The notes under the pieces were generated by a model. The model was not told where the DNA came from, did not search any database, and was given only the letters and a program-made list of their open reading frames with translations. The position numbers and the translations under genes are program-made. From a virus: a stretch of DNA of 38,127 bases. Numbering within the stretch: position 1 is the first letter of the stretch; every line of letters begins with the position of its first letter. The DNA is taken from IMG/VR virus record IMGVR_UViG_3300024979_000051, positions 1 through 38,127 of that record; one strand, written 5' to 3'. Shown here piece by piece: positions 12,002-29,559 of the stretch.

Positions 12002-12055
12002 TTGGCTATAGTCTAGAGAGTGGGAAATGAAAGCAGTATGCGAAGGGTTTCGCAG
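12002..12055 (-). promoter_or_regulatory. Predicted activator-dependent late promoter P1 (sheath/tail operon)
   Basis: The dyad ATGCGAAG-GG-TTTCGCAG (12038-12055) has its intact arm nearest the promoter. After 22 bp comes the -10-like hexamer TAGACT (minus strand, 12015-12010), with a start predicted near 12002. No -35 consensus is present. The dyad centre lies about 44 bp upstream of the start, like the Mor site in Mu. The same arrangement occurs at 16361-16414 and twice at 29470-29559. It lies in the gap between gp37 and DUF2635. Confidence 0.65.
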
Positions 12056-12090
12056 CCTGCTTTAAATAACAGGCATGGAAGCGGGGGAAG

Positions 12091-12681
12091 TTATTGCGGT
12101 AAAGCCGTGGTGTCGGTTAAATCGGGGGCGCTGGTGGTGTAGTCCGGCGGCTCTTCGGTCCATTTGTCATGCTCGGCCTGCGCCTGGAACGGCTCGACAT
12201 CGTAGTCGGCATGGAAGGTCACGAACGCGCCCAGCGTGGTTTCATCTACCCCCGTACGTCGTACCGTGGTTTCCAGTTGCAGACTGCCGACCGACAGGCC
12301 GTTATCCATCCAGACCTTGTCCTTGGCAAAATTGATGCTTTTCGCGTACCAGGCCGCGCCGGTCGTTTTATGACCGTCGAGAAATTCACTCAGTGCATCA
12401 AGCATCTGGTACAGGCCGATGGTCTGGCCGTCGCCGCGCCGCGCCGCATCGTTGCCCCGCGCATTGCCGGCGACGCAGATCAGATCAAAGCGCAGCGTGG
12501 CTTTTTCATCGCCAATCGCCACCGGACCTGCCACCGCATAAACGGCCGGGGCCGCTGTTTTGAATTTGCGCATCAAGGTCGCGGCATCGCCATCCGGCAA
12601 AGCCTCGACTTCTCGCAGATTCGCGGCAATCGGCGAAGCCTTGACCGCCGCAATCAGCTCAAGTTCGAGTTCAGACAGCAT
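12091..12681 (-). CDS. Mu gp37-family protein (DUF1834), tail completion
   Basis: A protein of about 196 residues starting MLSELELELIAAVKASPIAANLREVEALPDGDAATLMRKFKTAAPAVYAV. The family (Mu gp37, DUF1834) lies between gp36 and the sheath and is thought to act in head-tail joining or tail termination. The start at 12681 is preferred because it overlaps the end of gp36 by 11 nt and matches the family N-terminus; the longer reading frame from 12741 would overlap gp36 by about 70 nt. It is the last gene of the capsid operon, before late promoter P1. Confidence 0.85.
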   Translation of the reverse strand: MLSELELELIAAVKASPIAANLREVEALPDGDAATLMRKFKTAAPAVYAVAGPVAIGDEKATLRFDLICVAGNARGNDAARRGDGQTIGLYQMLDALSEFLDGHKTTGAAWYAKSINFAKDKVWMDNGLSVGSLQLETTVRRTGVDETTLGAFVTFHADYDVEPFQAQAEHDKWTEEPPDYTTSAPDLTDTTALPQ

Positions 12682-13084
12682 CGCGGCCAAATACCGATGG
12701 GCTGGATGAAAACTGCGCACTGTCGCTGGCGACATCGGCAACCGTTCCGGCCGAATCGGCCCCCAACTGGATCACGCCTTTGCCGACTTGCGTCAGATAT
12801 TTGATGGCGTCGTCATAGCGTTTTTTCACCTGCTCGATAACCCTGTCTTCATACAAGTAATACCGGGTCATATCGCAGGCCATCCGCTCAAAATTGGCCG
12901 GAACAGTGGCCAGCGGCAGGGCGTAGCCTGTTAAATAACTGTTGATCTCCGCCTCTGCATCGCTGATGGCCTTATTCAACACCGTCGCATTGATCGTGCC
13001 GGCGGGCGGTGTGGAGCGGTCGGTCAGCTGGGTGATCTCCAACTGGCCGAAACGATCGATCAGGTTTTGCTGGGTGCAGTACAT
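12671..13084 (-). CDS. Mu gp36-family head-tail connector (DUF1320)
   Basis: A 137-residue DUF1320 protein: MYCTQQNLIDRFGQLEITQLTDRSTPPAGTINATVLNKAISDAEAEINSYLTGYALPL, then RMACDMTRYYLYEDR. This family is structurally related to head-completion/adaptor proteins of the gp6/gp15 type. Its ATG overlaps the gp35 stop at 13084 (TAATG). Length and position are as in Mu. Confidence 0.9.
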   Translation of the reverse strand: MYCTQQNLIDRFGQLEITQLTDRSTPPAGTINATVLNKAISDAEAEINSYLTGYALPLATVPANFERMACDMTRYYLYEDRVIEQVKKRYDDAIKYLTQVGKGVIQLGADSAGTVADVASDSAQFSSSPSVFGRDAV

Positions 13085-13443
13085 TATTTAGCCGGTTTTA
13101 TGACGGGCTTGTCTTTGCCTTTTGGCGCTGACTTGTCGTCACCTTCAGACGCTGACTTGTCTTCGCTTTCTGACTCCGACTTACCGTCACCTTCAGGCGC
13201 TGACTTGTCTTCGTCTTTTGATTCCGACTTGTCGTCACCTTCAGACGCTGACTTGTCTTCGTCTTTGGCTCCGCCTTTGCCTTCATGATCCGGCCATACC
13301 TCAATAGTCAGCATCGGCTCGTTAAGCAGGCGTTCCAGTTCATCGGCGGTAAAGCGTTCGTCCGGGTGTGTGACAGGAGCGATTGAATGCACCACTCCGC
13401 ACCGTCTAAAGCCTTCTTTTTTCGAGGTAATAACAGTAGCCAT
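13084..13443 (-). CDS. Mu gp35-like head-region protein with acidic repeat tail
   Basis: A 119-residue protein. Residues 1-55 (VITSKKEGFRRCGVVHSIAPVTHPDERFTADELERLLNEPMLTIEVW) match the small Mu gp35/HI1506-type proteins that follow the major capsid gene. The rest is a low-complexity acidic/basic run of about six imperfect units such as EDKSASEGDDKSESKD and EDKSAPEGDGKSESES, ending KDKPVIKPAK. The tail is likely disordered. The gene lies 8 bp after the major capsid gene; its function in the virion is unknown. Confidence 0.75.
   Translation of the reverse strand: MATVITSKKEGFRRCGVVHSIAPVTHPDERFTADELERLLNEPMLTIEVWPDHEGKGGAKDEDKSASEGDDKSESKDEDKSAPEGDGKSESESEDKSASEGDDKSAPKGKDKPVIKPAK
13110..13275 (-). 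repeat. Tandem imperfect repeats in the gp35-like gene
   Basis: Units of about 36 nt (GACTTGTCGTCACCTTCAG / GCTGACTTGTCTTCG...) repeat through this stretch and encode the alternating DKS-x-EGD and DKSES blocks. Two copies (13131-13155 and 13232-13256) are nearly identical, so slippage or recombination could change the tail length in frame. Confidence 0.65.
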
Positions 13444-13451
13444 GATTGCAC

Positions 13452-14405
13452 CTACACCAATGTAGTTAAGACGGAACCCTGCCAGCGTCCGTAACCGACG
13501 TTGCGCCAGGTGTCCAGGCCGATCTGAATAGCGTCGTTATCGAACGCATATTCCGAATTCTCGTCCTTGACCTTTAACGCCGGTTTGGTTTCTTCCTGCC
13601 GGATCAGCGGCTTGACACTGCCGTCGGTGCGGAACGTGGTGAATTTGTCTGTCCAGCCCGCCACCGTAAACCGTGGATTAACCGCGAGTTTGACCGACAT
13701 GCCGTCCATGCTGAAGGTGCTAGGGCCGGAAACTCGCGCCGTAGACAACCCGGAGCGTGCCGCGTCACTCAGGCCAACCGGAACCATGACCAGGAACTCG
13801 CTGGCCAGTTCGTTGATCGGCTCGCCCTGGTCATCCACAAAGGTATGCAGCTGGGCGATGGATTTCAGGATGGCCTGCTGCATTTCTTCCGGTGACGGTG
13901 CAGTGACTACGCCGTGCGCCGTGGCCGGCAACGCGGAAATGTCCACCGAAATGGTGTTGCTCTGAGAGCCCGACTTGCCTTCGGCGTGGTCGGTATCGAA
14001 AAAATACTGGCCGTCATAGCACAGCGCGGTTGCGCCGTTCACGATCGACGTGCTCAGCAAAGATGCGAAATGGGTCACGCCGCGTTCGGCGAACTCGCCC
14101 ATTCGTACCCGGAGCTGGCCGGTTTTGTCGCGGCGCAAATCTTTCAGCAGGATATCCAGCGTCGACTCGAAGTGACGGTTCTTGATTTCCATACCCTCTG
14201 CGGACAAGCCTTTCGCCTGCCGGCTGCCGATCCATTCACGCAGCGCGGGCGGCATGCCCAGCCAAACATATTTTTCCATCGCCTGGTCGGACGTGAAGTA
14301 ATTCGATACTCCGTCAATCCAGCCAATCGCGTTAAGCGCTTCAAGACGCTCGTAATACATGCCGATAACCGCGCGGCTGCTTAAATCCTGTAAACTTTTT
14401 GACAT
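13452..14405 (-). CDS. Major capsid protein (Mu gpT)
   Basis: A 317-residue Mu gpT-type major head subunit with an HK97-like fold. Family landmarks are YYERLEALNAIGWIDGVSNYFTSDQAMEKYVWLGMPPALREWIGSRQAKGLSAEGMEIKNRHFESTL, DGQYFFDTDHAEGKSGSQSN and the C-terminal NSEYAFDNDAIQIGLDTWRNVGYGRWQGSV. It forms the icosahedral shell after cleavage of the scaffold by gpI. It lies downstream of the decoration-protein gene, in the operon started by the protease. Confidence 0.95.
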   Translation of the reverse strand: MSKSLQDLSSRAVIGMYYERLEALNAIGWIDGVSNYFTSDQAMEKYVWLGMPPALREWIGSRQAKGLSAEGMEIKNRHFESTLDILLKDLRRDKTGQLRVRMGEFAERGVTHFASLLSTSIVNGATALCYDGQYFFDTDHAEGKSGSQSNTISVDISALPATAHGVVTAPSPEEMQQAILKSIAQLHTFVDDQGEPINELASEFLVMVPVGLSDAARSGLSTARVSGPSTFSMDGMSVKLAVNPRFTVAGWTDKFTTFRTDGSVKPLIRQEETKPALKVKDENSEYAFDNDAIQIGLDTWRNVGYGRWQGSVLTTLV

Positions 14406-14424
14406 AGTCGTGATCCCCTAGTTA

Positions 14425-15192
14425 TTAACCTTCAGTCGCCCAAGTGCCGCGCAATGCCACAGCCAATGGGCCGTTGGCGTCGCCGGTCGCAAGCGTTACA
14501 AAATCCCCGCGCCGGGCGGTGGCTTTGGTATTGATCAGGTCTTTGTTGTCGGTGCCGGGCAGATCCGGGCCTTGTATTTTGTCGGCGGCCGCCGGCGAGA
14601 CATTGACCGCAATCGTGCCGAACGCGCCGCCATTGACGATGGTGCAGTTAACCGGCACCGCCACAGCGGGCAGCGTGATAATCTTGGCGTCCACGGTAAC
14701 GACCAACAGCTTGCCGTTGTCCTCAATATCCAGCGTTTTATCAACGGTGATGGCCTCGCGCACCGTATAGGCCGCCCAAGGATCGATATAGCGCGCCGCA
14801 TCGAATGCTACGACCGCCACACCGGCGCTGACATAGCGATGCACGAAACCGATGAAGGTCCCGCCCACCGGGTTAAGGCTGAAGGTATCGTCGTCCGTTG
14901 CGTAAACCGGCTGGCCGACATCGGTAATCACCGCTCCGGTCACGGCCAGCTCGATCTTGCCGCTTTCAATCACCCGCACGTTAATGGCGGCAGCGAGTCC
15001 GGCGGAGTTGTCGGCCTGCGCTTCCGCGAAACCGCCGAACTTGTCGCCGGCGACCAGCGGTCTTGCATGACCGGTGCCTGCAACCAGGCCGACGGCCGCC
15101 AGCAGATAGATAATATCTGCCGCGATAAGCGGGAACTCGTTGCGGTTGCCGCCCTCGACGGGCCGCTGCTTGTCTGCTGTTAATGTAGTCAT
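14425..15192 (-). CDS. Capsid decoration-type protein with extended C-terminus
   Basis: A 255-residue protein between scaffold/protease and major capsid, where a capsid-associated protein is expected (Mu has gp33 there). Residues 1-140 (LAAVGLVAGTGHARPLVAGDKFGGFAEAQADNSAGLAAAINVRVIESGKIELAVTGAVITDVGQPVYATDDDTFSLNPVGGTFIGFVHRYVSAGVAVVAFDA) resemble DUF2190-type decoration proteins. The remaining 110 residues are beta-rich (LDIEDNGKLLVVTVDAKIITLPAVAVPVNCTIVNGGAFGTIAVNVSP..) and look like an added surface domain. The ATG overlaps the protease stop (ATGA at 15189-15192). The decoration call is inferred from position and the N-terminal pattern. Confidence 0.7.
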   Translation of the reverse strand: MTTLTADKQRPVEGGNRNEFPLIAADIIYLLAAVGLVAGTGHARPLVAGDKFGGFAEAQADNSAGLAAAINVRVIESGKIELAVTGAVITDVGQPVYATDDDTFSLNPVGGTFIGFVHRYVSAGVAVVAFDAARYIDPWAAYTVREAITVDKTLDIEDNGKLLVVTVDAKIITLPAVAVPVNCTIVNGGAFGTIAVNVSPAAADKIQGPDLPGTDNKDLINTKATARRGDFVTLATGDANGPLAVALRGTWATEG

Positions 15193-16361
15193 TCTTTACT
15201 CCCATGAATTTTGACCGAGCCCGCTTCATTGGCGCGGACATAGGCGATATAGGTATCTGCGGTGCCGAACTCGGCTTGCAGGGCTGCGGTTTTGTTGAAC
15301 TCCGCTCTGGCCCGGTCTTCAACCGGCAGCGTACTGTCGATCTGACCGTCAACCGGCGGCTTGCCTTGGCTCTGCATGCCGGACAAGGCCGCAATCGGTT
15401 GCGCGGAATCTAAAAACCCGGATAGCGCGGCAAAATCCTGCTTACCCAGATTGGTCAAATAGCTTTCCAGCTGCTCACCGATAATCCGCCCGTCGGCTTT
15501 GCCTTGCTCGATCAACCGGTCAACACGATCGTCAACCACATTGCCGGACAAGGCCGCCAATTGAGTGCGCATCTCATTGACTACGCTAATCGGGGCGTAT
15601 TTCGTCAGGTCTACTTCGGGGTTGATGCGTGCCGCTTCAGTGCCGACCTGCGCCGACAAAGCCGCAATCTCGGCATTTTTAGCCGTTATCAGCGCCGACA
15701 TACTGGTCATCGAGCCATCTTCTTTAGTGAGCATGGCTTTCACTTTATCCAGCTCGGCGCACATCTCGGCTGGGGTGGTTGTTAGCGGCAAATTGAGCAT
15801 ATAGCACAGCCGTTCGCAGAGTTCGTCCATAGTGGATTCCTGTGAGGATGAAGTTGAAAAAATAAGCGCCGCCGCAGCGGCCAAATCATTGAGGTTGTCT
15901 AACGCGGGGTAGTTGGTCAGCGCGGCCATTAGCACGCCGGTGACGTGACCGGTACCATCCCATCGAATGACCGGACTGATGTAGCGGTATTCTTTAGCCA
16001 CTATTGCATCCAAGGCGGCTTGATTCCATTCCATATCAACCGCGTACAGACCATCGCCGTCGCGCCATTCAAACCGTCCACCCCATCCCGCCGCAAGGGC
16101 TTTAATACCGGTGGTTTTGGCGTGCAGGGTTTGGTGCTCGTAATCGACCAGAAACCGTGAACTTAACTCCGCTTGTGCCGCTACAATCGCGGCGGCGTTT
16201 TTGCCGGTCATAATCCAGGCTGGGACGTCGGTCGGCCGATTATCTCGGCAACTGCGAAACGATCCAGCGGGAACCAGTTTGATTTCGGTCGGCGCGACGC
16301 CCTCCAGGTCAACCAGCAGGGCGGACAGTTCGACGTATTGAGTGGCGAGTTTTTTTGTCAT
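15189..16361 (-). CDS. Head maturation protease with C-terminal scaffold (Mu gpI/gpZ)
   Basis: A protein of about 390 residues of the Mu I/Z type. The N-terminal protease part includes GSFRSCRDNRPTDVPAWIMTGKNAAAIVAAQAELSSRFLVDYEHQTLHAKTTG...AGWGGRFEWRDGDGLYAVDMEWNQAALDAIVAKEYRYISPVIRWDGTGHVTG, with the D-Y-E-H-Q motif typical of the family. The C-terminal half (from about residue 230) is helical and coiled-coil-like, as in the scaffold made from the internal start Z. In-frame ATGs exist at 16373, 16370 and 16361. The predicted promoter P2 has its -10 over the first two and its start at or next to the ATG at 16361, so 16361 is preferred and the message may be leaderless. Confidence 0.88.
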   Translation of the reverse strand: MTKKLATQYVELSALLVDLEGVAPTEIKLVPAGSFRSCRDNRPTDVPAWIMTGKNAAAIVAAQAELSSRFLVDYEHQTLHAKTTGIKALAAGWGGRFEWRDGDGLYAVDMEWNQAALDAIVAKEYRYISPVIRWDGTGHVTGVLMAALTNYPALDNLNDLAAAAALIFSTSSSQESTMDELCERLCYMLNLPLTTTPAEMCAELDKVKAMLTKEDGSMTSMSALITAKNAEIAALSAQVGTEAARINPEVDLTKYAPISVVNEMRTQLAALSGNVVDDRVDRLIEQGKADGRIIGEQLESYLTNLGKQDFAALSGFLDSAQPIAALSGMQSQGKPPVDGQIDSTLPVEDRARAEFNKTAALQAEFGTADTYIAYVRANEAGSVKIHGSKE

Positions 16362-16414
16362 GGACCGCATCATAGGCAGTCATGATCAAGTGAGGTATGC
16401 GAAGGACTTCGCAG
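16361..16414 (-). promoter_or_regulatory. Predicted activator-dependent late promoter P2 (protease/capsid operon)
   Basis: The dyad ATGCGAAG-GA-CTTCGCAG (16397-16414) is followed on the minus strand by 22 bp and then TATGAT (16374-16369), a good -10 box with no -35. With a usual 7-nt discriminator, transcription would begin at 16361, the A of an in-frame ATG of the protease gene. This corresponds in position to Mu promoter PI, upstream of gene I. Confidence 0.65.
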
Positions 16415-16437
16415 GGACTGTTTTGCAGAAAGAGGTA

Positions 16438-16467
16438 GACCCTTGTGAGACTGTCCTCGCAAGGGTC
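16438..16467 (-). terminator. Strong hairpin between Mor and the capsid operon (possible terminator)
   Basis: A 30-bp inverted repeat with arms GACCCTTG and CAAGGGTC plus an inner GAG/CTC pair lies in the 190-bp gap after mor (stop at 16606) and before promoter P2. On the minus strand it is followed by a pyrimidine-rich but not uninterrupted T stretch, so intrinsic termination is plausible, not certain. The rest of the gap (16468-16605) has no gene; AGCCCGTT(A/T)A occurs twice. Confidence 0.4.
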
Positions 16468-16605
16468 AGATGAAATAGTACAGGATGTAGCCGTTGGGCG
16501 ATACCCGAATACGTTTATAAACGATTTATGAGCCCGTTTAAGCCTCACTAAGTAATTTTACTAGCCCGTTATAGCGGCCACTATCGTTTTCGGGCCTTAA
16601 ACCGC

Positions 16606-17001
16606 CTATATTTCAAATAAATCCAGATTGAGCATTAACGGCTCGACGGCATGGATAATCGTGCTGATCTGGCGGTCGGTTAATCCGTATTTGCGCACCA
16701 GATTACCCATGCTAAAACCCGCAAGATGGTCCTGACGGATCATCTCATTTCGGACCGCCCGGCGGGCGGCTTCCGCTTTGGCGATCGTCAATGGCTCAGC
16801 CCCGCCAAATACCTTGCTGAACTGGCATGCCGCAGGATAGCCCAACAATTGGCTGAGGCTATGCTCCGGAGTCATATTGGCCGGTACCGACAAGCGCATG
16901 CCGCCGTAAGCGCTCCAGATAAGCCACATGACGTCGTCGCCGCAGTATTCGGCGATTTCCAGCAGGCTGGCAGGCAGCAAGTGGCGGGGCAGTTCGCTCA
17001 T
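16606..17001 (-). CDS. mor: Mor/C-family transcription activator, likely late-gene activator
   Basis: A 131-residue Mor-family protein. The N-terminal half (LPASLLEIAEYCGDDVMWLIWSAYGGMRLSVPAN) is the dimerisation domain and the C-terminal FSMGNLVRKYGLTDRQISTIIHAV is the helix-turn-helix. In Mu, Mor activates the middle promoter by binding a dyad centred at -43.5, and its paralogue C activates late promoters. No second Mor/C gene is seen here, so this protein probably acts directly on the late promoters, whose 18-bp dyads sit at the same distance. The ATG at 17001 overlaps the gemA stop (ATGA). It is the last gene of the early operon. Confidence 0.88.
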   Translation of the reverse strand: MSELPRHLLPASLLEIAEYCGDDVMWLIWSAYGGMRLSVPANMTPEHSLSQLLGYPAACQFSKVFGGAEPLTIAKAEAARRAVRNEMIRQDHLAGFSMGNLVRKYGLTDRQISTIIHAVEPLMLNLDLFEI

Positions 17002-17489
17002 TGTTGCGTAGCGCTCACGGTTGTCTTGAGGCAACGGGCTTGCCATTTCTTCAGCGCCTCGATCACGCCGCTGGCCTGCGCGGTGGTCAGCCATTGCAAG
17101 GCCTCAACCCCCATCAGTCGCTTGACGTAGTTCGCCAGGCTGGCTTCGGACGGATCGCGAACGATGCCCTGGGCGTGCATGTCCAGCCACAAGGCGCGGA
17201 TTTTTTTAGACTGTGCGTCACCGGCCAGCTTCCGGGTTGATGTGTCCTGGCGGTGCTTGACCTTGAAGCCTTGCTTTTTCATGGTCTCAACCGCCTGGCA
17301 CAGCTGGCCGATAGACAGCGTCGAAGCCGAGTATTTGCCGTCTTTCAGGGTAGCGCCCTGCATCGGCAGCCAGATGCCGTAATAGAACTCGTCATCCCAG
17401 CCCAGCTCGGCCTTGCCGACTTGCAGCAGAGTATAGTAGTTTTTGCGGTTATCCGTCTCGGAGCGCGGTTTGTAATGTCTATGATTCAT
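16998..17489 (-). CDS. gemA: GemA regulatory protein (DUF1018)
   Basis: A 163-residue GemA-family protein with the signature YYTLLQVGKAELGWDDEFYYGIWLPMQGATLKDGKYSASTLSIGQLCQAVETMKKQGFK and SKKIRALWLDMHAQGIVRDPSEASLANYVKRLMGVEALQWLTTAQASGVIEALKKW. In Mu, GemA modulates host gene expression and DNA supercoiling and is encoded just before Mor, as here. It overlaps the preceding gene by 11 nt. Confidence 0.9.
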   Translation of the reverse strand: MNHRHYKPRSETDNRKNYYTLLQVGKAELGWDDEFYYGIWLPMQGATLKDGKYSASTLSIGQLCQAVETMKKQGFKVKHRQDTSTRKLAGDAQSKKIRALWLDMHAQGIVRDPSEASLANYVKRLMGVEALQWLTTAQASGVIEALKKWQARCLKTTVSATQQ

Positions 17490-18033
17490 GGGTTGCTCTC
17501 TTGGCTTTGCCCTGCCAGTTGGCTGGCGGGGTTGATTTGGGTTTAATGATCTTGCCTACCGGCTGCATACCTGACTGTGTGCCGGAATATTCGGGGCTAA
17601 AGCCCCTCCCACGCTGCGCCTCGATCGCTTTGGCCTCAGTCACCGCTAGATTCTTTTCGACCCGGCCGACCATGATGGATAACAAATAGCCGTTGGATTT
17701 CAGCGGCAGCACTAATGACGCCGGTTTATTACTAACCAGTTTCATCATCTCTCCTTCCCAGGCTTGCATCGGCATTGGATACTCGACGCCGTTGCGTTTT
17801 ACGGTGCCGGATTTAATCATCGGCATCAGCTCTTGCGTCAAGGCCAGCCGCCGCGACCAGCGCAGCGCCTGCTTACCGGGCTTAAACAGCTCCAAATAAC
17901 GCAGCAGTGCGCCGATCATGCTCGGCGGTACGCTCTGGATCAGCGCCGTCCACTCGTTACCTGCGGCCAGTTCCATGCCTTGAATGATGTCGACCGCCTT
18001 GCCGCAGTAAGGACAATCAAAACTGCAACTCAT
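17479..18033 (-). CDS. Early protein with N-terminal zinc-binding CPYC motif
   Basis: A 184-residue early protein beginning MSCSFDCPYCGKAVDIIQGMEL. The start at 18033 has AAGAGG upstream, inside the end of the DUF3164 gene. Cys3, Cys7 and Cys10 could hold a zinc ion, but no second Cys pair is present. The middle is helical (PPSMIGALLRYLELFKPGKQALRWSRRLALTQELMPMI). A REP-like palindrome is inserted in frame near the C-terminus and encodes the RGRGFSPEYSGTQSG stretch. The general type (zinc-ribbon early protein before gemA) recurs in Mu-like phages; function unknown. Confidence 0.75.
   Translation of the reverse strand: MSCSFDCPYCGKAVDIIQGMELAAGNEWTALIQSVPPSMIGALLRYLELFKPGKQALRWSRRLALTQELMPMIKSGTVKRNGVEYPMPMQAWEGEMMKLVSNKPASLVLPLKSNGYLLSIMVGRVEKNLAVTEAKAIEAQRGRGFSPEYSGTQSGMQPVGKIIKPKSTPPANWQGKAKRATHES
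17585..17614 (-). repeat. REP-like palindrome inserted in frame in an early gene
   Basis: GGGGCTAAAGCCCC (17593-17606) with flanking GTGGGAG on the minus strand has the form GTGGGAG-GGGCTTTAGCCCC-GAATATTCC, the layout of bacterial REP elements in Pseudomonas and methanotroph genomes. These are normally intergenic. Here the repeat keeps the frame open and adds about 10 residues to a phage protein. Confidence 0.6.
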
Positions 18034-18037
18034 CAGA

Positions 18038-18724
18038 TCAAGCCTCTTTTTCAATAGCCAAAAAATCAAACTCAAACCCGAAAGGGAAATCAACAGACGA
18101 CATCGATAACGGGATCGCCACCTTCTCGTTCGCCTCATTCATAAAATACGCCTCGATAAACCAACAGGTGCGCGTCGGCTTGTAGGCCTGCAAGATCGTA
18201 TTAACGCCGTCGGTAAAATTCACATCGTGAAAATCATCGGTCATTTTTTGCAGTTCCAACACGCGGCTAGCGCGCAGATTGCCTTTCGCGTCTTTCTTTA
18301 ACAGCCTGAAAATAGTCTTAACCAACTTTGCCGATGACGGGTCGGTCGCCAACGAATCGATGTAGGCGGTCACTTTTTGAATGCCGGCCGATACCGTATC
18401 GTCCCAGCCGTCATTGACCCGATAGCCGATGGTGATGCCGTATTTGTCCGTCGAAAACGTATGGCTTTGCTGGTTGTCAGTGACGCCGTAAACGTCTGCC
18501 TTCATCTTCAGCAGGTCTTTGAAGTAAGCAAATGTCTCCGATTTAATGGCGCTCAAGTTGTCGGATACGGTCATTAATTTAGCGACTGCATCGGGTACGG
18601 TCGTTTGCACCAAGTCTTTGTAGGCTTTGCGGTCCTGTACGGACTTAGTGCGCTTAGCGCGTAATAAATCTTCCAATTGCTGCTCGGTTAAATGATTGGG
18701 GTCAATCAGGGTCTCAGTCGTCAT
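18038..18724 (-). CDS. DUF3164-family early protein
   Basis: A 228-residue protein of the DUF3164 family, common in early operons of Mu-like phages: DRKAYKDLVQTTVPDAVAKLMTVSDNLSAIKSETFAYFKDLLKMKADVYGV, SHTFSTDKYGITIGYRVNDGWDDTVSAGIQKVTAYI and ASRVLELQKMTDDFHDVNFTDGVNTILQAYKPTRTCWFIEAYF. The domain has no assigned biochemistry. It follows a hydrophobic mini-ORF by 28 bp and precedes the zinc-motif protein by 4 bp. Confidence 0.88.
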   Translation of the reverse strand: MTTETLIDPNHLTEQQLEDLLRAKRTKSVQDRKAYKDLVQTTVPDAVAKLMTVSDNLSAIKSETFAYFKDLLKMKADVYGVTDNQQSHTFSTDKYGITIGYRVNDGWDDTVSAGIQKVTAYIDSLATDPSSAKLVKTIFRLLKKDAKGNLRASRVLELQKMTDDFHDVNFTDGVNTILQAYKPTRTCWFIEAYFMNEANEKVAIPLSMSSVDFPFGFEFDFLAIEKEA

Positions 18725-18752
18725 TTTTCTTATACCAGTTGTGTAAAATTAT

Positions 18753-18818
18753 TTACCAAAAATGGATCATTGCCGGCAGCGCCATCAGCACCACAATCAG
18801 CAACAAGATCCCGTCCAT
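18753..18818 (-). CDS. Translationally coupled 21-residue hydrophobic peptide
   Basis: The ATG at 18818 overlaps the stop of the upstream gene (TAATG at 18816-18820) and opens a 21-codon frame encoding MDGILLLIVVLMALPAMIHFW. It is a single membrane-spanning segment with an acidic start and no basic tail. The coupling and clean hydrophobic composition make it a plausible expressed membrane peptide in the early operon, but a chance ORF cannot be excluded. Confidence 0.5.
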   Translation of the reverse strand: MDGILLLIVVLMALPAMIHFW

Positions 18819-19147: not shown

Positions 19148-19149
19148 GA

Positions 19150-20316: not shown

Positions 20317-20317
20317 G

Positions 20318-20536: not shown

Positions 20537-20565
20537 TTGCTTATCTCTCTTGGATGGGGTTGTGT

Positions 20566-21264: not shown

Positions 21265-21294
21265 CGCTTTACCTATTAATTAATTTGTTGTTTT

Positions 21295-23058: not shown

Positions 23059-23060
23059 GG

Positions 23061-24062: not shown

Positions 24063-24065
24063 GTC

Positions 24066-24365
24066 TTACCCTCTATTTAGTCGTTGTTGTGATTCTTTGA
24101 TCCGTTCTGCCGCGTTATCCAGAGACTTTAAAATCTGCACGGCATGTTGCCCTAGCCGATGACTAGGCCTGATACGGCTGGTCTCCGGGATGCGTTCAGC
24201 AAAGCCTGCGCTTTCCAGTGTCGAGACATAGCGGGTAATGTCGCTAGCCGAATAACCCGTCTCTTTGACCAACTCGGTCGGGCTAAAGCCGTGGGCAAAA
24301 TTCCTGAGCAAAACGTCTAACACCTTAAGCACCTTGAGTGCGCTTTTGTTATCTTGTGCAGCCAT
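24066..24365 (-). CDS. IclR-type winged-helix regulator (single domain)
   Basis: A 99-residue protein consisting only of the IclR-like N-terminal winged helix: ALKVLKVLDVLLRNFAHGFSPTELVKETGYSASDITRYVSTLESAGFAERIPETSRIRPSHRLGQHAVQIL. Full IclR regulators are about 250 residues with a ligand domain, which is absent. Such truncated IclR-type proteins are typical of BcepMu-like early operons. It probably regulates transcription or assists transposase expression. Confidence 0.82.
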   Translation of the reverse strand: MAAQDNKSALKVLKVLDVLLRNFAHGFSPTELVKETGYSASDITRYVSTLESAGFAERIPETSRIRPSHRLGQHAVQILKSLDNAAERIKESQQRLNRG

Positions 24366-24367
24366 GA

Positions 24368-24544
24368 TTACCCCTTGCTCAGCTTGGCTAATTTACGCTC
24401 CAGTATTTTGGTCAACGTTTTGATGACCTGGGCGGAGTCCTCGGCGTCGATGATGATCGAACCGTAAGAGGTGGCGACCACAAACCCACGAGCCATATCC
24501 GGGATCTGTTTAGCGAGTGCGTATTTCAAATCATTTTCATCCAT
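24368..24544 (-). CDS. Small early protein (58 residues)
   Basis: An ORF from ATG 24544 with GAGGAG upstream encodes MDENDLKYALAKQIPDMARGFVVATSYGSIIIDAEDSAQVIKTLTKILERKLAKLSKG. It fills the gap between the IclR-type gene and the next gene with 2 and 5 bp spacing. The layout (beta hairpin, then basic helix) suggests a compact folded protein. Not recognised as a named family. Confidence 0.7.
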   Translation of the reverse strand: MDENDLKYALAKQIPDMARGFVVATSYGSIIIDAEDSAQVIKTLTKILERKLAKLSKG

Positions 24545-24549
24545 AGCGA

Positions 24550-25026
24550 TTACTCCTCATCAAATGGCAGCTCCGGCTGCCGGTATTTTTCAACATTGCC
24601 TTTATGCCAGGCCATGCGCTCCAAGGCGGTTTGCATGGCGGCTAGTGTGGCGTCCATATCGCTCGGGTCGGCATAAAAGCTCATCAGCGCACCAATAGCA
24701 TCATGTGTTGCCGATTGCAGCGCCTGTATATCTTCTGGCCCGCCTTTGCGGCCTTTGGGTATTTCGATGACCAACTTACCGCCGCTGACCACCAGCCAAC
24801 GGCTGACGAAATCTATGCCGCAGGCATGTTCAAAGCCTTTTATCGATCGGGCCGGCATGCTGGCTTCCTGTATCCATTTGTACAGCGTCCATTTGCTGGC
24901 CAAGCTCATCAGATCAGCGACCGTGTCCACAGAGCGGTTATGTTTAACCCTGGCGTATTCCAAGCAACAATCCATCGCATCACGCAGATCGCGGGGTTGC
25001 ACGGTCTTCCAATTCCTACGGCTCAT
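24550..25026 (-). CDS. Putative early regulatory protein (158 residues)
   Basis: A protein starting MSRRNWKTVQPRDLRDAMDCCLEYARVKHNRSVDTVADLMSLASKWTLYKWIQEASMPARSIKGFEHACGIDFVSRWLVVSGGKLVIEIPKGR. The first 75 residues have a CII/HTH-like layout (helix, ADLMSLASKWTLYKWIQE recognition-like segment), and the C-terminal part is helical and acidic. It resembles regulators found at the head of Mu-like early operons. A palindromic site (25071-25099) lies 45 bp upstream, so it may be controlled there or bind it. Exact family not recognised. Confidence 0.65.
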   Translation of the reverse strand: MSRRNWKTVQPRDLRDAMDCCLEYARVKHNRSVDTVADLMSLASKWTLYKWIQEASMPARSIKGFEHACGIDFVSRWLVVSGGKLVIEIPKGRKGGPEDIQALQSATHDAIGALMSFYADPSDMDATLAAMQTALERMAWHKGNVEKYRQPELPFDEE

Positions 25027-25067
25027 TGCGGATAGCCCTCATACCAGCACCCAAACAAAAACCGCTC

Positions 25068-25099
25068 TTGTGCATTGTGAAAGCCTGTTTCATAATGCA
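25068..25099 (+). promoter_or_regulatory. 29-bp near-perfect palindrome overlapping a predicted rightward promoter
   Basis: TGCATTGTGAAA-GCCTG-TTTCATAATGCA (25071-25099) has 12-bp arms with one mismatch pair. On the plus strand TTGTGC (25068-25073) and CATAAT (25091-25096) are 17 bp apart and form a plausible promoter for the gene at 25137, so the dyad would cover both boxes. It also lies upstream of the leftward gene starting at 25026. It may be the operator of one of the two small HTH proteins or of the repressor. Confidence 0.5.
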
Positions 25100-25136
25100 A
25101 AAATAAGCCCGTCTTAAATCACTACGGGTAATTACC

Positions 25137-25535
25137 ATGGCTGCTATTAAATACTTATGCATTAACTGTCACTGCTCGCTGGTTATTCAGCCGTTTATGC
25201 CGGTTGATAGCAAAGCCAGGCTGCCTCAAATGAGGTGTCCGTTTTGCAAGCACATATGTGCACCTGAGCAGTCGATAGAGGCTCATCGGGACTCACGGGG
25301 CCTGGTTGATAGGCCGGCGCTTTATCGGCTCTGGTCAAATTGCCCAAACGCATATAAGTGCGAACTGCACGGCCAATACGACGCCGATTGCGAGGACGGA
25401 CGGATGATGCCGAAATGTCTGGTCGCCCTTCATGCAGAAGCTGAATACGCAGTGCATTTTGCGCAAGCAGCCGCTCAACCAGCACCAAAGCGCCGATCTC
25501 GAAAGGCACCGGATAGCGCTGAGCGTGGAAGCTGA
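25137..25535 (+). CDS. Cysteine-rich zinc-ribbon-like protein, opposite to the early operon
   Basis: A 132-residue protein on the plus strand. It has CINC (residues 8-11) and CPFC (34-37), an expected zinc ribbon, then more Cys (NCPNAYKC, ADC) and a basic C-terminus KRRSRKAP. The start ATG at 25137 lacks a strong Shine-Dalgarno, but a promoter-like pair with a palindromic operator lies just upstream. A minus-strand ORF covers the same DNA (25195-25593) and has a GAGGAC ribosome-binding-like site; the plus frame is preferred because its Cys pairs and composition look like a folded protein. Function unknown. Confidence 0.55.
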   Translation: MAAIKYLCINCHCSLVIQPFMPVDSKARLPQMRCPFCKHICAPEQSIEAHRDSRGLVDRPALYRLWSNCPNAYKCELHGQYDADCEDGRMMPKCLVALHAEAEYAVHFAQAAAQPAPKRRSRKAPDSAERGS

Positions 25536-25605
25536 TGGTTTGATCGCACGCAACGCGGCGATGATAAACGGGATTATTGAGCGATTGGGCCATGGTTAAG
25601 TCCTC

Positions 25606-25647
25606 GGTAGTTTTGCTTAGGTAGTTTCGCTTAAGTAGTTATGCGTA
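25606..25647. repeat. Three tandem 14-bp repeats plus adjacent palindrome
   Basis: GGTAGTTTTGCTTA, GGTAGTTTCGCTTA and AGTAGTTATGCGTA follow each other without gaps (25606-25619, 25620-25633, 25634-25647). The inverted repeat TACGT-N6-ACGTA (25646-25661) abuts them. The block lies in the short gap between the cysteine-rich gene and the gp16-type gene. Iterated sites next to small DNA-binding proteins suggest binding sites, though no protein can be assigned. Confidence 0.55.
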
Positions 25648-25665
25648 CGTTGTTTTACGTAGGCT

Positions 25666-25944
25666 TTAGGCGGCCCGCCTGTCAACCGAGTCATCGTCGG
25701 CTGATGGCTTGAGGCCCAGGGCGACGGCAATTTTGTGGGCCCGGCCGTAATTGCATTTGTAATAGCCGTTGAGGACCAAAATGACTTCGCGCGGCGGAAA
25801 ACCGTGGTCGCGGGCCCAGCCCGTGGTCGTGATGCCCTGTCTTGCAAACTCGGCTTTGACTTGTTCGGGGGTTTTTACTTGTTCGGGTTTGTTCATGACT
25901 GGCTTTGAAACCCGGTAAATCGATTTAACTGAACAATTGCGCAT
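25666..25944 (-). CDS. BcepMu_gp16-family DNA-binding protein
   Basis: A 92-residue protein. The family core is KTPEQVKAEFARQGITTTGWARDHGFPPREVILVLNGYYKCNYGRAHKIAVALGLKP, matching the phage-associated DNA-binding family represented by BcepMu gp16. The ATG at 25944 has AAGGAG 6 nt upstream, so the N-terminal MRNCSVKSIYRVSKPV is probably translated; a downstream ATG (25896) lacks such a site. It lies 10 bp after a paralogue in the early operon and may play the Ner-like role of limiting repressor and early transcription. Confidence 0.85.
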   Translation of the reverse strand: MRNCSVKSIYRVSKPVMNKPEQVKTPEQVKAEFARQGITTTGWARDHGFPPREVILVLNGYYKCNYGRAHKIAVALGLKPSADDDSVDRRAA

Positions 25945-25954
25945 AAAGTGCTCC

Positions 25955-26155
25955 TTAAGCGGCTTGCTGAGTAAAGGTGGCTAGTTTTTCGGCAATCTCG
26001 CGGCCTTTGCCGTAATTGCCGTGGCGAATACCACGGACAACGTCAGAGACATCGCGAAATTTGAAGCCGTTGGCTTGGGCCCAGGAAGTCATGGTGTGGC
26101 CCCGTTGACGCAGGGTGTGCTTAACGTCGTTGGGGTTAAATTGTGGTGTGCTCAT
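25955..26155 (-). CDS. Second BcepMu_gp16-like DNA-binding protein
   Basis: A 66-residue protein (FNPNDVKHTLRQRGHTMTSWAQANGFKFRDVSDVVRGIRHGNYGKGREIAEKLATF) with the same layout as its neighbour: V-K-x-x-L/F-x-x-x-G-x-T-x-x-x-W-A, then a DNA-recognition helix and GNYGKGREIAEKL. GAGGAG precedes the ATG. It is the first gene of the early operon, behind the promoter at 26199-26228. Tandem duplication followed by divergence is likely. Confidence 0.8.
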   Translation of the reverse strand: MSTPQFNPNDVKHTLRQRGHTMTSWAQANGFKFRDVSDVVRGIRHGNYGKGREIAEKLATFTQQAA

Positions 26156-26198
26156 GTGCGCTCCTCGTTTAACGGTTAGTGGCTGTTTGTCGGTGTTA

Positions 26199-26228
26199 AT
26201 TATTCCACGTTTGTGGAATTTTTGTAAA
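26199..26228 (-). promoter_or_regulatory. Predicted early promoter with perfect 18-bp repressor operator
   Basis: On the minus strand TTTACA (26228-26223) and AATAAT (26204-26199) are 18 bp apart, each one mismatch from consensus. The perfect inverted repeat ATTCCAC-GTTT-GTGGAAT (26202-26219) fills the spacer and touches the -10. It lies between the divergent repressor gene and the first early gene. This is the classic layout of an operator that shuts off the early promoter. Confidence 0.7.
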
Positions 26229-26240
26229 GGAATTTTTCAA

Positions 26241-26756
26241 ATGAAAAATGTAATTGCTGGTCGATTGCTTGAAGAGCGGTTACGGCTAAAGCTAAATAAA
26301 GGCGCAATGGCGCAGGCTGGCGGTGTTGTTAACAGTACGTATACGAATTATGAAGATGGTAAGCGGTCACCTGACGGGGAGTTTTTATCGGCAATAGCTG
26401 CCGCTGGAGCCGATGTGCAATACATCCTAACCGGGGTGCGCTCCATCAATCCGCCGGTTAAGCCATCGACAATAGACCAACATCAAGCGCTGATTAAAGC
26501 AGCTGCGGAAATGGCGACTAAATTTAATCTGCCTGAGGATGGGGCGGCTGATCTGCTAGGTATGATCTATGCAATTGGCAGTCAAAATGCAGAATTACTC
26601 AATACTGCCAACACCCTCAGACCCGACCAAGCCGCGCTGCTTGATAATGTAGAACATTGCGCCAAGGAGGATCAGGAGGCCATCAAGCGCATGGCCTTTA
26701 TAGCCGCTAAAGCGGACAAGGATGAAACGCAATCAGGGAAGAAAAAAAGGGCTTAA
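26241..26756 (+). CDS. Phage repressor, XRE-type HTH (BcepMu gp17-like)
   Basis: A 171-residue repressor. The start ATG 26241 follows AAAGGAA, which excludes the longer upstream reading frame. The N-terminal HTH reads IAGRLLEERLRLKLNKGAMAQAGGVVNSTYTNYEDGKRSPDGEFLSAIAAAGADVQYILTGVR, an XRE/CI-type fold with the common PDGEFLSAIAAAGADVQYILTG pattern. The rest is helical (AALIKAAAEMATKF..) and has no LexA-type S/K protease, so induction is not expected through simple RecA cleavage. It is divergent from the early genes and should bind the palindrome at 26202-26219. Confidence 0.85.
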   Translation: MKNVIAGRLLEERLRLKLNKGAMAQAGGVVNSTYTNYEDGKRSPDGEFLSAIAAAGADVQYILTGVRSINPPVKPSTIDQHQALIKAAAEMATKFNLPEDGAADLLGMIYAIGSQNAELLNTANTLRPDQAALLDNVEHCAKEDQEAIKRMAFIAAKADKDETQSGKKKRA

Positions 26757-26833
26757 ACCGCCCCAATAAGCGCATGAACATAAGCGTTTAACTAGCGCCT
26801 ATGCTATTTACTTTTCGATCTTGGAGGTTAGAT

Positions 26834-27634
26834 ATGGGTTTTTTTGATAGATTAAAGAAAAAAACAGATACCAATACAATTAATTGCGGCCCGGTGACGC
26901 TGAGTTATTCAATAGAGGTCAAAAAAAATCCTATCCATGAGCAAATTGCCGCTTTACACAGGGAGGCTGAAAAGTACAAAAATGTGGATTGGTCTGCTGC
27001 GGTTGTAAGCCTAAAAAAAGCAACCAATTTAATGAGACAACATCCCGGCAGCTATTCACTCACGCAGTGGACGAGATTGCCTATATTTATGCAACAAGCT
27101 GGACAGTTTGATGATGCGATGCAGGAGTTTGAGCGATTGTTAAGTGAGGTAGAAACACGGGTCAGACAGGAGTGTCTTGAAAATGCAAGCGCAGTTCGTA
27201 TTGAGTACATGGTTAATCTAAATTACCAAAAAATCTACGACAAAATGCGCATGGTTTGTAAACGACAAAAGCGCCTTGATGAAGCTGCTGAATATGCTGA
27301 ACTATCCCGCCAACACAGTGAAAGAGTTGCAGAATTACAAAATATCGTTAATCAAGAACTTAAAGATGAACGGAATGCCGTTTATGTTCAATATGCTAAA
27401 AATAGGCTAAAGCAACTTAGGGACCCGGATTTAATTAAATTTTATCCGTATTGGAAATATGTATGCAATGAAACCCAGATACACGCGTGCCATTTAGAGT
27501 ATTCAGGTCTTGTGCTTCGGCATGATGATCCTTGGTGGGATTCACACTTTCCGCCTAATGGCCCTGATTGTCGGTGCAGAGTCGCATCTGCCAAAAATGA
27601 AGAATATACGGGGCAAATAGCACCGCTTGATTGA
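26834..27634 (+). CDS. TPR-like accessory protein ending in a MuF (gpF) C-terminal segment
   Basis: A 266-residue protein; start 26834 follows GGAGG. Residues 40-190 are helical with TPR-like repeats (WSAAVVSLKKATNLMRQHPGSYSL, AGQFDDAMQEFERLLSEVE, KRLDEAAEYAELSRQHSERVAELQ). Residues 197-266 (DPDLIKFYPYWKYVCNE....LVLRHDDPWWDSHFPPNGPDCRCRVASAKNEEYTGQIAPLD) match the end of the MuF core in this prophage's own gpF (residues 136-207), including the DDPWWD and CRC motifs. The DNA of that motif is 27/30 identical. The rest of the MuF domain is missing. The gene is AT-richer than neighbours and follows the repressor, a typical place for lysogenic conversion genes. Role unknown; virion targeting or a recombined remnant are possible. 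Confidence 0.7.
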   Translation: MGFFDRLKKKTDTNTINCGPVTLSYSIEVKKNPIHEQIAALHREAEKYKNVDWSAAVVSLKKATNLMRQHPGSYSLTQWTRLPIFMQQAGQFDDAMQEFERLLSEVETRVRQECLENASAVRIEYMVNLNYQKIYDKMRMVCKRQKRLDEAAEYAELSRQHSERVAELQNIVNQELKDERNAVYVQYAKNRLKQLRDPDLIKFYPYWKYVCNETQIHACHLEYSGLVLRHDDPWWDSHFPPNGPDCRCRVASAKNEEYTGQIAPLD

Positions 27635-27659
27635 TCTTGGAGTAAACGAATGAGCGCGG

Positions 27660-27734
27660 TAGGTTGGGCTGAGGCACGAAGCCCAACACCTCGGCTGTAG
27701 GTTGTTAGACAGCAGAACCCGCTTTCTAACAACC
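27660..27734. repeat. REP-like hairpin and second perfect stem-loop
   Basis: GTTGGGCT (27663-27670) pairs with AGCCCAAC (27680-27687) around a GAGGCACGA loop, a repeat type frequent in intergenic DNA of many Proteobacteria. A second stem, GGTTGTTAGA (27700-27709) with TCTAACAACC (27725-27734), is perfect over 10 bp. Together they follow the TPR-MuF gene and may act as terminator-like structures. The remaining gap to 27847 contains no gene. Confidence 0.6.
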
Positions 27735-27847
27735 TGAAATTAAGCTCAAAAAGACCTTAAGTTAAGCTGAGTTTTTCGTTAATTTTTTGAGATTGGCTTA
27801 CGGGCTTACCCACGCACAAGCAAAGCCCACTATAAACAGGATCAAGT

Positions 27848-28321
27848 ATGGACTCAGCTGCCATCAGCAGTTTAATAGCCGCCGGAGCCGCGCTGGCAGG
27901 CGGGGCGATTTCCCAAGTGTTTTCATTGCTTGGCAAACGCTCAGAACGAAAACATGAAGTGCATCTGCTACGCCGGGCAAAGCTGGAGCAGCTGACGGAG
28001 TTGGTATATCAGTCGCAGCTATTGGCGCTTGAGTCGCTGGAGTTGATTCGGAACGTTCCGGGCAAAGAATCCTTATCAACCGTTCGGCAAACTCAGGATC
28101 AAATCGCCTTGCGGGTTTGTTCCTTAGCGCTGTTATTTTTTCCATCTTTGAAGGTCGTGGCTGGTGAATTTCTGAAGGCATCGGTTGGTTTCCAAATAGC
28201 GTTAGAATCAGGTAAGGAAGATGAAATGATTATTGCCGCGCAACGCGTGACTCCAATCAGGAAGTCGTTGGAGCAAGAAATCGAGCGTTGCGCAATTAAG
28301 CTTGGTTTTCACGGCCGCTGA
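27848..28321 (+). CDS. Predicted single-pass membrane accessory protein
   Basis: A 157-residue protein with a hydrophobic N-terminus (MDSAAISSLIAAGAALAGGAISQVFSLLG) followed by a basic, helical region (KRSERKHEVHLLRRAKLEQLTELVYQSQLLALESLELI) and a second helical part (RVCSLALLFFPSLKVVAGEFLKASVGFQIALESG). The layout suggests a membrane-anchored cytoplasmic helical protein. It is flanked by gaps, unlinked to lysis genes, and resembles a lysogenic conversion gene; superinfection exclusion is one possibility. Not recognised. Confidence 0.6.
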   Translation: MDSAAISSLIAAGAALAGGAISQVFSLLGKRSERKHEVHLLRRAKLEQLTELVYQSQLLALESLELIRNVPGKESLSTVRQTQDQIALRVCSLALLFFPSLKVVAGEFLKASVGFQIALESGKEDEMIIAAQRVTPIRKSLEQEIERCAIKLGFHGR

Positions 28322-28457
28322 CAATTAGGCGTCTTGCCGCCTGGAAAAGCGATCCAGACCGTCACACACGGCAGAACATTAACGCACAGCCGCCGGTTAT
28401 ACGGCGACCAATGCGCACCAATCCAGCAGCTGCCTAATCTGAATAAAAGTCCGATCT
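28322..28457. other. Intergenic stretch without recognised gene
   Basis: This 136-bp stretch separates the plus-strand membrane protein gene from two convergent minus-strand genes. It contains short GC-rich inverted repeats (GGCG-TCTT-GCCGCC region near 28328 and CGCCGG..ACGGCG near 28391-28408) that may form convergent terminators. No ORF is supported. Confidence 0.4.
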
Positions 28458-28673
28458 TCATCGTCTAAACGCCTCCGGTGGCGGCATGTCGCCGGGCGGA
28501 ATCTGTAGCATTTCCCGCCAGACGCGATTGAATTTTCGCGAATCGGCACTCACGGCTTGCCAGTCTTCTTCTGTGTTGCCTTTTTTCAGGTAGTAGCCAC
28601 GGATCGAGGCATGGCGCAGGCTGGCCCGTTGCAGCCGTGCTGGGACTGCATACAGATTGTTATACATCAGCAT
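28458..28673 (-). CDS. Unrecognised small protein, coupled to the upstream phage gene
   Basis: About 71 residues (MLMYNNLYAVPARLQRASLRHASIRGYYLKKGNTEEDWQAVSADSRKFNRVWREMLQIPPGDMPPPEAFRR), basic and probably helical. The ATGs at 28673 and 28667 overlap the stop of the preceding gene (TGATG at 28665-28669), suggesting coupled translation. A longer reading frame to 28727 overlaps the neighbour by about 60 nt and is less likely. Function unknown. Confidence 0.5.
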   Translation of the reverse strand: MLMYNNLYAVPARLQRASLRHASIRGYYLKKGNTEEDWQAVSADSRKFNRVWREMLQIPPGDMPPPEAFRR

Positions 28674-28993
28674 CCGATAGCTTTCATAAGGTCGTATGTC
28701 TTCGGGGCACTCCTTGCTTTGCACCAATCCAACCCGACCTCATCCAGGAATGATGCTTCTATTTCGGCCCACCGTTCTACCAGCTTTGCCCATGTCGGCG
28801 ATAATTCCCGGAGTTTGTCCATGTGCTTCCGCGCCTCTGGTACAGCATCAAGAAATAACAGGCACCTGTTCAGGTCGTCTGGATCGTAGGGGTGCGACTT
28901 CGGACCGTCTAATCCAGCAATGCAGAAGGCCATAGCTTTGGAAGATTGGCCGACGCGACCCGTCGCAAACCAATTTAAAATCTTGTCTTTCAT
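28667..28993 (-). CDS. Conserved small protein of Mu-like prophages
   Basis: A 108-residue protein: MKDKILNWFATGRVGQSSKAMAFCIAGLDGPKSHPYDPDDLNRCLLFLDAVPEARKHMDKLRELSPTWAKLVERWAEIEASFLDEVGLDWCKARSAPKTYDLMKAIG. The layout ILNWFATGRVG.SSKAMA...HPYDPDDLNRCLLFLDAVPE recurs in small Mu-like phage proteins. GAGGAA lies upstream of the ATG. It is on the minus strand next to the endolysin gene, so may belong to the operon driven by promoter P3-minus. Biochemical role unknown. Confidence 0.75.
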   Translation of the reverse strand: MKDKILNWFATGRVGQSSKAMAFCIAGLDGPKSHPYDPDDLNRCLLFLDAVPEARKHMDKLRELSPTWAKLVERWAEIEASFLDEVGLDWCKARSAPKTYDLMKAIGC

Positions 28994-29025
28994 TCTTGGT
29001 TCCTCATTTATGCCTAACCCGTCGC

Positions 29026-29442
29026 TCAGGCAAGGCGTTTACCCGCTCGCAGGTCGGCCAGTGTTAATCCTCCGGTGTATTGGCAATGCGCCAGTTCTTG
29101 AAACCCTTTCCAACGTCCCGCCCACTCTAACCCTAAGCTTTCAGCGATTTTTCCGCACTGATTAAACCGTGCGGTATCGCTCCAGACTGCCTTGCCGTTC
29201 ATGATCGGGCAGAAATCAAAGGCTAAGCGATAGTTGTGAAACGATTGTCCGGCGCCTGCCTTGGTCACGATTTTGCCTGGCTGGGTTCGCCCTTGTGCAT
29301 AGAGCGCGGCTTGCGATTCGTTATCCCGGTAGGTGCTGGTGATGATGATATCGATACCTCGCTGGGCACAGGCGGTAATAAAGGCATGGCACAGGGCGGC
29401 GACGTGGGGGTGCAGGTCTTCGATTTTGCGGCTGTTAATCAT
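29026..29442 (-). CDS. Endolysin, M15-type L-alanyl-D-glutamate peptidase
   Basis: A 138-residue peptidase. Zinc ligands typical of M15C enzymes are visible: H69 and D76 in SFHNYRLAFDFCP and H119 in ELAHCQY. GIDIIITSTYRDNESQAALYAQGRTQPGKIVT is the usual family N-terminal part. The start at 29442 (MINSRKIEDLHPHVAALC) has GGAGA upstream and excludes a longer frame that would begin inside the promoter palindrome. There is no signal peptide, so a holin is needed to release it. Unlike the other lysis genes it lies on the minus strand, divergent from them. Confidence 0.9.
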   Translation of the reverse strand: MINSRKIEDLHPHVAALCHAFITACAQRGIDIIITSTYRDNESQAALYAQGRTQPGKIVTKAGAGQSFHNYRLAFDFCPIMNGKAVWSDTARFNQCGKIAESLGLEWAGRWKGFQELAHCQYTGGLTLADLRAGKRLA

Positions 29443-29469
29443 GGGGTGTCTCCAGTAGACGTAGTTATC

Positions 29470-29523
29470 CGTTCTGAAGTCTACGCATCTGGCGATAAGC
29501 GGGGCATGCGAAGGGCTTCGCAT
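29470..29523 (-). promoter_or_regulatory. Predicted activator-dependent late promoter P3-minus (endolysin)
   Basis: From the perfect palindrome ATGCGAAG-GG-CTTCGCAT (29506-29523), 22 bp leftward lies TAGACT on the minus strand (29483-29478), the same hexamer as in P1, with a start predicted at about 29470. The leader of about 28 nt contains the endolysin ribosome-binding site. No -35 box is visible. Confidence 0.65.
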
Positions 29524-29559
29524 ACTGACTAATTGCCCTAGCGCCTAAAATTTCCTCGC
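29506..29559 (+). promoter_or_regulatory. Predicted activator-dependent late promoter P3-plus (lysis/packaging operon)
   Basis: The same perfect palindrome serves the other direction: 22 bp to its right is TAAAAT (29546-29551), a near-consensus -10, with a start near 29559 and GGAGG at 29581 before the first gene. One symmetric site therefore has a -10 at the same distance on both sides. The two other dyads in the prophage (12038, 16397) have a degenerate outer arm and only one -10. This promoter corresponds to Mu Plys. Confidence 0.65.

Follow-up and report, generated by a model that had tools for sequence, protein, structure and literature searches.

A dyad at fixed spacing from the −10 hexamer marks the predicted late promoters of a Mu-like phage with a single Mor-family gene

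How might a Mu-like phage that encodes a single Mor-family protein switch on its late operons? In Mu, a Mor dimer binds a dyad whose centre is at −43.5; the promoter has a −10 hexamer and no −35 box, and Mor contacts the alpha and sigma C-terminal domains (PMC4390567, PMC4287176). The question is raised by the IMG/VR virus record IMGVR_UViG_3300024979_000051, analysed here over its whole 38,127-nt stretch (the window). An initial reading of the letters alone, referred to below as the sequence-only reading, had proposed that one dyad with fixed spacing marks four late promoters and that a single Mor-family protein would act on them directly. Direct activation of all four promoters by one Mor, giving one-step control, together with a predicted leaderless protease mRNA, is in our judgement very likely the best explanation, because the promoters share one geometry, there is one mor gene, and the dyads vary between phages while the spacing is constant.

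Dyads, −10 hexamers and the Mor-family gene in the window

A search of the whole window for ATGCGAAGNNCTTCGCAT, allowing up to three mismatches, found matches only at 12038–12055 (two mismatches), 16397–16414 (one) and 29506–29523 (none), which are the three positions reported by the sequence-only reading. Shuffled sequences gave an expectation of 0.24 matches, and three were reached in none of 100 shuffles. The dyads have 8-bp arms around 2 bp, with a GAA-N4-TTC core. When they are read outwards, four intact CTTCGCAT half-sites are present, with none besides these in the window, and all four are followed at exactly 22 bp by a TANNNT hexamer (TAGACT, TATGAT, TAGACT and TAAAAT), as had been claimed. 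Given a TANNNT background of 0.0077 per position, the chance that at least four of six arms share one offset is 5e-8, or about 1e-6 across 21 offsets. The reported lack of a −35 box also held, as no sigma-70 promoter with a −35 box was found in the two regions searched (11900–17100 and 29300–29800). The promoter elements are as follows.

12038–12055, CTGCGAAACCCTTCGCAT on the minus strand: late-promoter dyad 1, predicted Mor site
12010–12015, minus strand: −10 TAGACT, 22 bp from dyad 1, predicted start about 12003
16397–16414, CTGCGAAGTCCTTCGCAT on the minus strand: late-promoter dyad 2, predicted Mor site
16369–16374, minus strand: −10 TATGAT, 22 bp from dyad 2, followed by GCGGTCC (7 nt) and then ATG at 16361
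29506–29523, perfect ATGCGAAGGGCTTCGCAT: late-promoter dyad 3, common to two divergent promoters
29478–29483, minus strand: −10 TAGACT, 22 bp from dyad 3, predicted start about 29471
29546–29551, plus strand: −10 TAAAAT, 22 bp from dyad 3, predicted start about 29558

With the −10 hexamer set at −12 to −7, an 18-bp dyad and a 22-bp spacer place the dyad between −52 and −35 of the predicted start and its centre at −43.5. This equals the published position of the Mor site in Mu, which the sequence-only reading had put at about −44. The late promoters of the window thus resemble the Mu middle promoter Pm in their dyad centre and in having a −10 hexamer with no −35 box, and a further likeness is that the early operon closes with a Mor-family gene next to gemA. 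Dyad 3 apparently drives two divergent promoters, each with its −10 at 22 bp, and the same arrangement was seen in three relatives (G001, G002 and G003). The one dyad could serve both promoters in turn.

The mor gene and the genes behind the dyads were examined next to the promoters, and the operons that the sequence-only reading had placed there (sheath, protease/capsid, endolysin and lysis/packaging) were verified.

16998–17489, minus strand: gemA, directly upstream of mor, as in Mu (Pfam GemA, 7.8e-31)
16606–17001, minus strand: mor homologue, 131 amino acids, follows gemA as the final gene of the early operon (Pfam Mor, 1.4e-8)
16438–16467, minus strand: hairpin (−18.6 kcal/mol, z −2.9) that separates mor from the protease promoter
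15189–16361, minus strand: Mu-like protease (gpI), first in the head operon, start reassigned to 16361, MTKKLATQYVEL... (Pfam Mu-like_Pro, 2.6e-82)
11745–11954, minus strand: DUF2635 gene, first behind dyad 1, Shine–Dalgarno (SD) sequence GGAG
10263–11741, minus strand: tail sheath gene, second gene of that operon
29026–29442, minus strand: endolysin, M15 peptidase, with an SD sequence
29593–37909, plus strand: lysis/packaging operon (TraR/DksA-type protein, TerL, portal, gpF), SD sequence AGGAGG

The overall layout resembles that of phage KS10. The early operon lies on the minus strand and has gemA and mor as its last genes; the protease/head and tail operons come next, and a divergent region has the endolysin on the minus strand and lysis/packaging on the plus strand. 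The hairpin is a possible weak terminator of the early operon.

The claim of a single Mor-family protein was borne out, as one PF08765 match was found in the window record (35.2 bits against a cut-off of 24.9, and 29 bits in the genome scan) and the same search found two, Mor and C, in Mu. A longer mor open reading frame (ORF) was excluded because a close relative, L005, carries an in-frame stop in the upstream stretch. Every larger Mu-like record with a Pfam hit likewise had one Mor-family gene, and the pair of paralogues of the Mu Mor-then-C cascade was found in neither the window nor these larger relatives. In a profile comparison the window Mor was weakly matched to Mu Mor (1rr7, E 0.08) and, with an E value of about 0.005, to Mu C (9l0x/9vw8). 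Having one Mor/C regulator is not new in itself: single 'late regulator Mor/C' genes have been recorded in transposable phages (PMC8705779, PMC8541194) and gp27 of KS10 was named Mor (PMC2628397). The suggestion that one protein merges the Mor and C steps is a fair description of the proposed control.

Conservation of the layout in other phages

The sequence-only reading had staked its case on conservation in related prophages, and in those examined the dyads and the 22-bp spacing were kept. In G001, whose Mor is 84% identical, dyads with TANNNT at 22 bp were found at the same three positions, and the endolysin/lysis dyad has TANNNT in both directions. The protease dyad of G001 is altered on both arms together (CTGAGAAG..CTTCTCAT), and the protease downstream is only 44% identical despite the kept dyad. 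G002 keeps the protease-position dyad and the bidirectional dyad, and L005 keeps the sheath and protease dyads, so that dyad 1 is conserved upstream of the sheath operon in both L005 and G001. Two further records, L013 (Mor 60%) and G004 (Mor about 39%), were found via the dyad rather than via Mor, and both carry mor.

More distant relatives were searched without a preset motif. Regions around Mor genes were gathered from Methylococcales and other gammaproteobacterial genomes, and queried for any near-palindromic 8-2-8 dyad repeated within the region with TANNNT at a fixed offset, for offsets of 14 to 32 bp. Under strict settings sites were obtained only at offsets 22 and 23, from nine and four sources respectively, and the nine include some overlapping records of a single phage; under looser settings, with overlapping records removed, offset 22 was represented by six sources, 23 by seven and the others by none to three. 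The recovered dyads have the GAA-N4-TTC core in common, while the outer arms are phage-specific: TTCCGAA..TTCGGAT (G003), CGCTGAA..TTCAGCG (G076), CCCTGAA..TTCAGGC (the Alteromonadaceae phage B23), CCCGGAA..TTCCCCC (G264, G341 and G470) and GGCGGAA..TTCCGCC (G030 and G058). With this core fixed, 24 sites were found at 22 bp and 12 at 23 bp, against about 1.5 per offset elsewhere; at 24 bp there were seven, only some of them credible. A repeat search free of the core was too noisy. The same layout with other palindromes recurs in about 20 related viruses.

Several named phages share the layout. In Curvibacter phage TJ1 there are four dyads (8194, 18567, 25569 and 31232), each exactly 22 bp from xANNNT (GAGACT, CACAGT, GACACT and GACACT). 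In KS10, for which the search found a single Mor, dyads lie at 18124 (protease) and 7599 (lysis), and a third, at 31107, is less clear. Both resemble the window in their divergent genome layout, in having a dyad 22 bp from the −10, and in the leaderless-type start of the protease, but differ in dyad type (TGGTGAAG..TTTCACCA rather than CTGCGAAG..CTTCGCAT) and in a −10 that often lacks the first T. Dyads were found in SuMu at 18470 and 30465, with 22-bp spacing. B23, like the window, has a single Mor and carries two dyads (10240 and 17835), but the spacing is 23 bp and the gene order is collinear and Mu-like.

In Mu itself Mor drives one middle promoter making C, whereas in the window dyads precede four late promoters and there is no second Mor/C protein. 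With the Mu late promoters Plys, PI, PP and Pmom the window shares an arrangement in which several late operons, including lysis and protease (I), each have a site for one Mor/C-family activator (PMC4461284). The Plys region also carries TAGACT. The C-dependent promoters, however, have another dyad sequence and need Mor first to make C, and the search found no dyad promoter of the window type upstream of Mu gene I.

A recognition code in which one helix residue sets the base beside the GAA core (Arg with G, an aromatic residue or His with T, others with C) was considered for the varying arms. It fitted about 16 phages in the sample and was rejected, as out of sample it failed for G132, TJ1 and SuMu and only G448 agreed.

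Predicted leaderless starts

At the window protease the ATG at 16361 lies 7 nt past the −10 hexamer, with no SD sequence. The start of the longer protease ORF, at 16373, falls inside the −10; the start codon is placed at 16361. It coincides approximately with the predicted +1, and the protease mRNA is therefore predicted to be leaderless. The remaining three promoters of the window have leaders with SD sequences.

Dyad promoters with an ATG within 13 nt, at the head of an ORF longer than 60 amino acids, were then counted across the phages (n=22). The distance from the −10 to the ATG was 6 nt in 11, 7 nt in ten and 9 nt in one. The genes started in this way are mostly head proteases, and also include holin-like, endolysin and gp46-like baseplate genes. 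An SD-like match of at least 4 nt was present at two of 40 distinct starts of this kind, compared with 59 of 68 other B23 and TJ1 genes. A few of the 40 starts came from searches in which the ATG was part of the pattern. An ATG 6–7 nt after the −10 with no SD sequence leads us to predict leaderless protease mRNAs in the relatives as well as in the window. Some GenBank annotations equal the predicted +1 (10293 and 17888 in B23, 31284 in TJ1 and 30517 in SuMu). Others lie upstream of or inside the promoters, namely those for the protease in KS10 (18120) and in TJ1 (18593) and that for a TJ1 coding sequence (25586), and these are probably wrong; the true protease starts are predicted at 18177 in KS10 and 18620 in TJ1. 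The feature that is new here is this predicted placement of the start codon 6–7 nt after the −10, with no SD sequence, at the protease promoter and some others. No paper on this late-promoter motif or on leaderless late genes in Mu-like phages was found in a literature search that left subscription journals mostly uncovered.

We also consider it probable, with more reserve, that a large set of single-Mor Mu-like phages shares one late-promoter grammar, consisting of a phage-specific dyad with a GAA-N4-TTC core, 22 or 23 bp, a −10, a G/C-rich discriminator of 6–7 nt and AUG, with a leaderless protease and, in some phages, a leaderless holin, endolysin or gp46-like baseplate gene.

Three other observations concern such starts. 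Very short predicted-leaderless ORFs of 17–27 amino acids, beginning MKFYN... or MNLKS..., lie directly behind dyad promoters at six loci (L230, L232, L235, L251, L260 and L273) and are possible leader peptides. In the window, the C-terminal piece of an ORF at 26801–27634 (plus strand) is about 53% identical to the phage's own gpF (35866–37302), and in one relative (L022/G003) a related gpF-like ORF, with a predicted leaderless start, immediately follows a dyad promoter. The late lysis/packaging operon of the window encodes a DksA/TraR-type zinc-finger protein (30877–31137, plus strand; Pfam zf-dskA_traR, 6e-12), and it is conceivable that this protein affects RNA polymerase at leaderless late promoters with a G/C-rich discriminator.

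Activation by one Mor-family protein and the alternatives

Under direct activation, the last gene of the early operon would supply the sole Mor/C-family activator. A Mor dimer is predicted to bind the 18-bp dyad at −43.5 in place of a −35 box and, by analogy with Mu Mor, to contact the host RNA polymerase. The sheath/tail and protease/head operons would be activated in this way, as would the endolysin and lysis/packaging operons, the last two via one dyad, and the early-to-late switch would take one step without the C relay of Mu. Protease would be translated only from Mor-driven transcripts and not from early read-through RNA. The hairpin at 16438–16467 may stop early transcripts and, together with the leaderless start, limit the protease to the Mor-driven phase.

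Several results weigh against this account. The 16-bp element of Mu Pm (5-bp arms around a 6-bp G/C-rich spacer) is not seen in the window, and for the predicted fold of the window Mor the top PDB match was Mu C (9l0x) at E 0.75, with no significant Mor/C match. Most of the phages were found through their Mor gene, and the co-occurrence of Mor and dyad is therefore only partly independent. Among records found by the TTCGGAT pattern, Mor was present in 10 of 40, many of which are short fragments or probable chance matches. The late motif was not found in Mu, MP22, Ps59, RcapMu or RR1-B despite their Mor-family genes, and it is lacking in D3112-type and B3-type phages. About ten Mu-like prophages (set B) within a blind set that covered 60 Mor-family regions (0.93 Mb) of other genomes also lacked it. 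In the blind set as a whole, no site with at least six of eight arm pairs was found at 22–24 bp; 43 of the 60 regions have no detected phage genes and serve as a negative control. A motif search of a Mannheimia phage and of Vibrio phage martha found no such late sites either. In one group of genomes (G615–G779, regions L166–L225) each genome carries between one and five Mor-family genes, whose helix is almost uniformly LTERQIYTIL. For the most part neither phage genes nor dyad promoters were detected around them, and these Mor-type proteins possibly have a non-phage role.

Another regulator, either a second phage helix-turn-helix (HTH) protein or a host factor, might bind the dyads and activate the late promoters while Mor works elsewhere. 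Several other HTH proteins are encoded in the window, for example an IclR-like protein (24066–24365) and an HTH repressor (26115–26756), and the binding of Mor to the dyads is a prediction from sequence. We nevertheless regard this as unlikely, as the position of the dyad and the −10-only layout fit the published Mor site (PMC4390567, PMC4287176), and the dyad sequence varies between phages with constant geometry, which is what an activator encoded by the phage should show. All eight records that were found with two other dyad types, using leaderless-type patterns, also carried a Mor gene. It is very unlikely that a two-step cascade persists, with Mor working through an undetected, diverged C-like protein. 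Small unannotated ORFs are present and remote relatives could evade the Pfam model, but the search that gave one PF08765 match in the window and in the larger matched relatives does find both Mor and C in Mu, and the late dyad promoter directly follows mor, so there is no middle operon between mor and the protease.

Palindromes near promoters are typically operators, and the dyads might instead silence otherwise constitutive late promoters in the lysogen. This is scarcely plausible here, since the late promoters have no −35 element and therefore need an activator, the dyad does not cover the −10, and no dyad of the late-promoter type was found near the repressor gene in a search of the window. 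A repressor role also leaves the fixed 22 or 23 bp to the −10, at late operons only, unexplained. Perfect inverted repeats can also be RNA structures. A role of the dyads as hairpins or terminators was rejected on account of the 2-nt loop and the lack of a following T tract, and the dyads, being upstream of the predicted start, are absent from the late mRNA; chance palindromes are excluded by the shuffles, the half-site statistics and the offset counts of the motif-blind and core-fixed searches. The probability of RNA hairpins or chance palindromes is negligible.

Direct activation by a single Mor would turn 'late activator' annotations into a defined regulon, in which dyad, spacing, −10 and gene starts are predictable in many transposable phages, and wrong start codons, such as those of the KS10 and TJ1 proteases, become correctable. 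It becomes testable whether a single Mor takes the place of Mu's Mor-C relay, and the phages provide a natural series of Mor proteins with differing dyads for studying DNA recognition. The predicted leaderless late mRNAs form a conserved class in proteobacterial phages. If the prediction is true, they would be the first such class among Mu-like late genes, and protease synthesis would be tied strictly to Mor-driven initiation.

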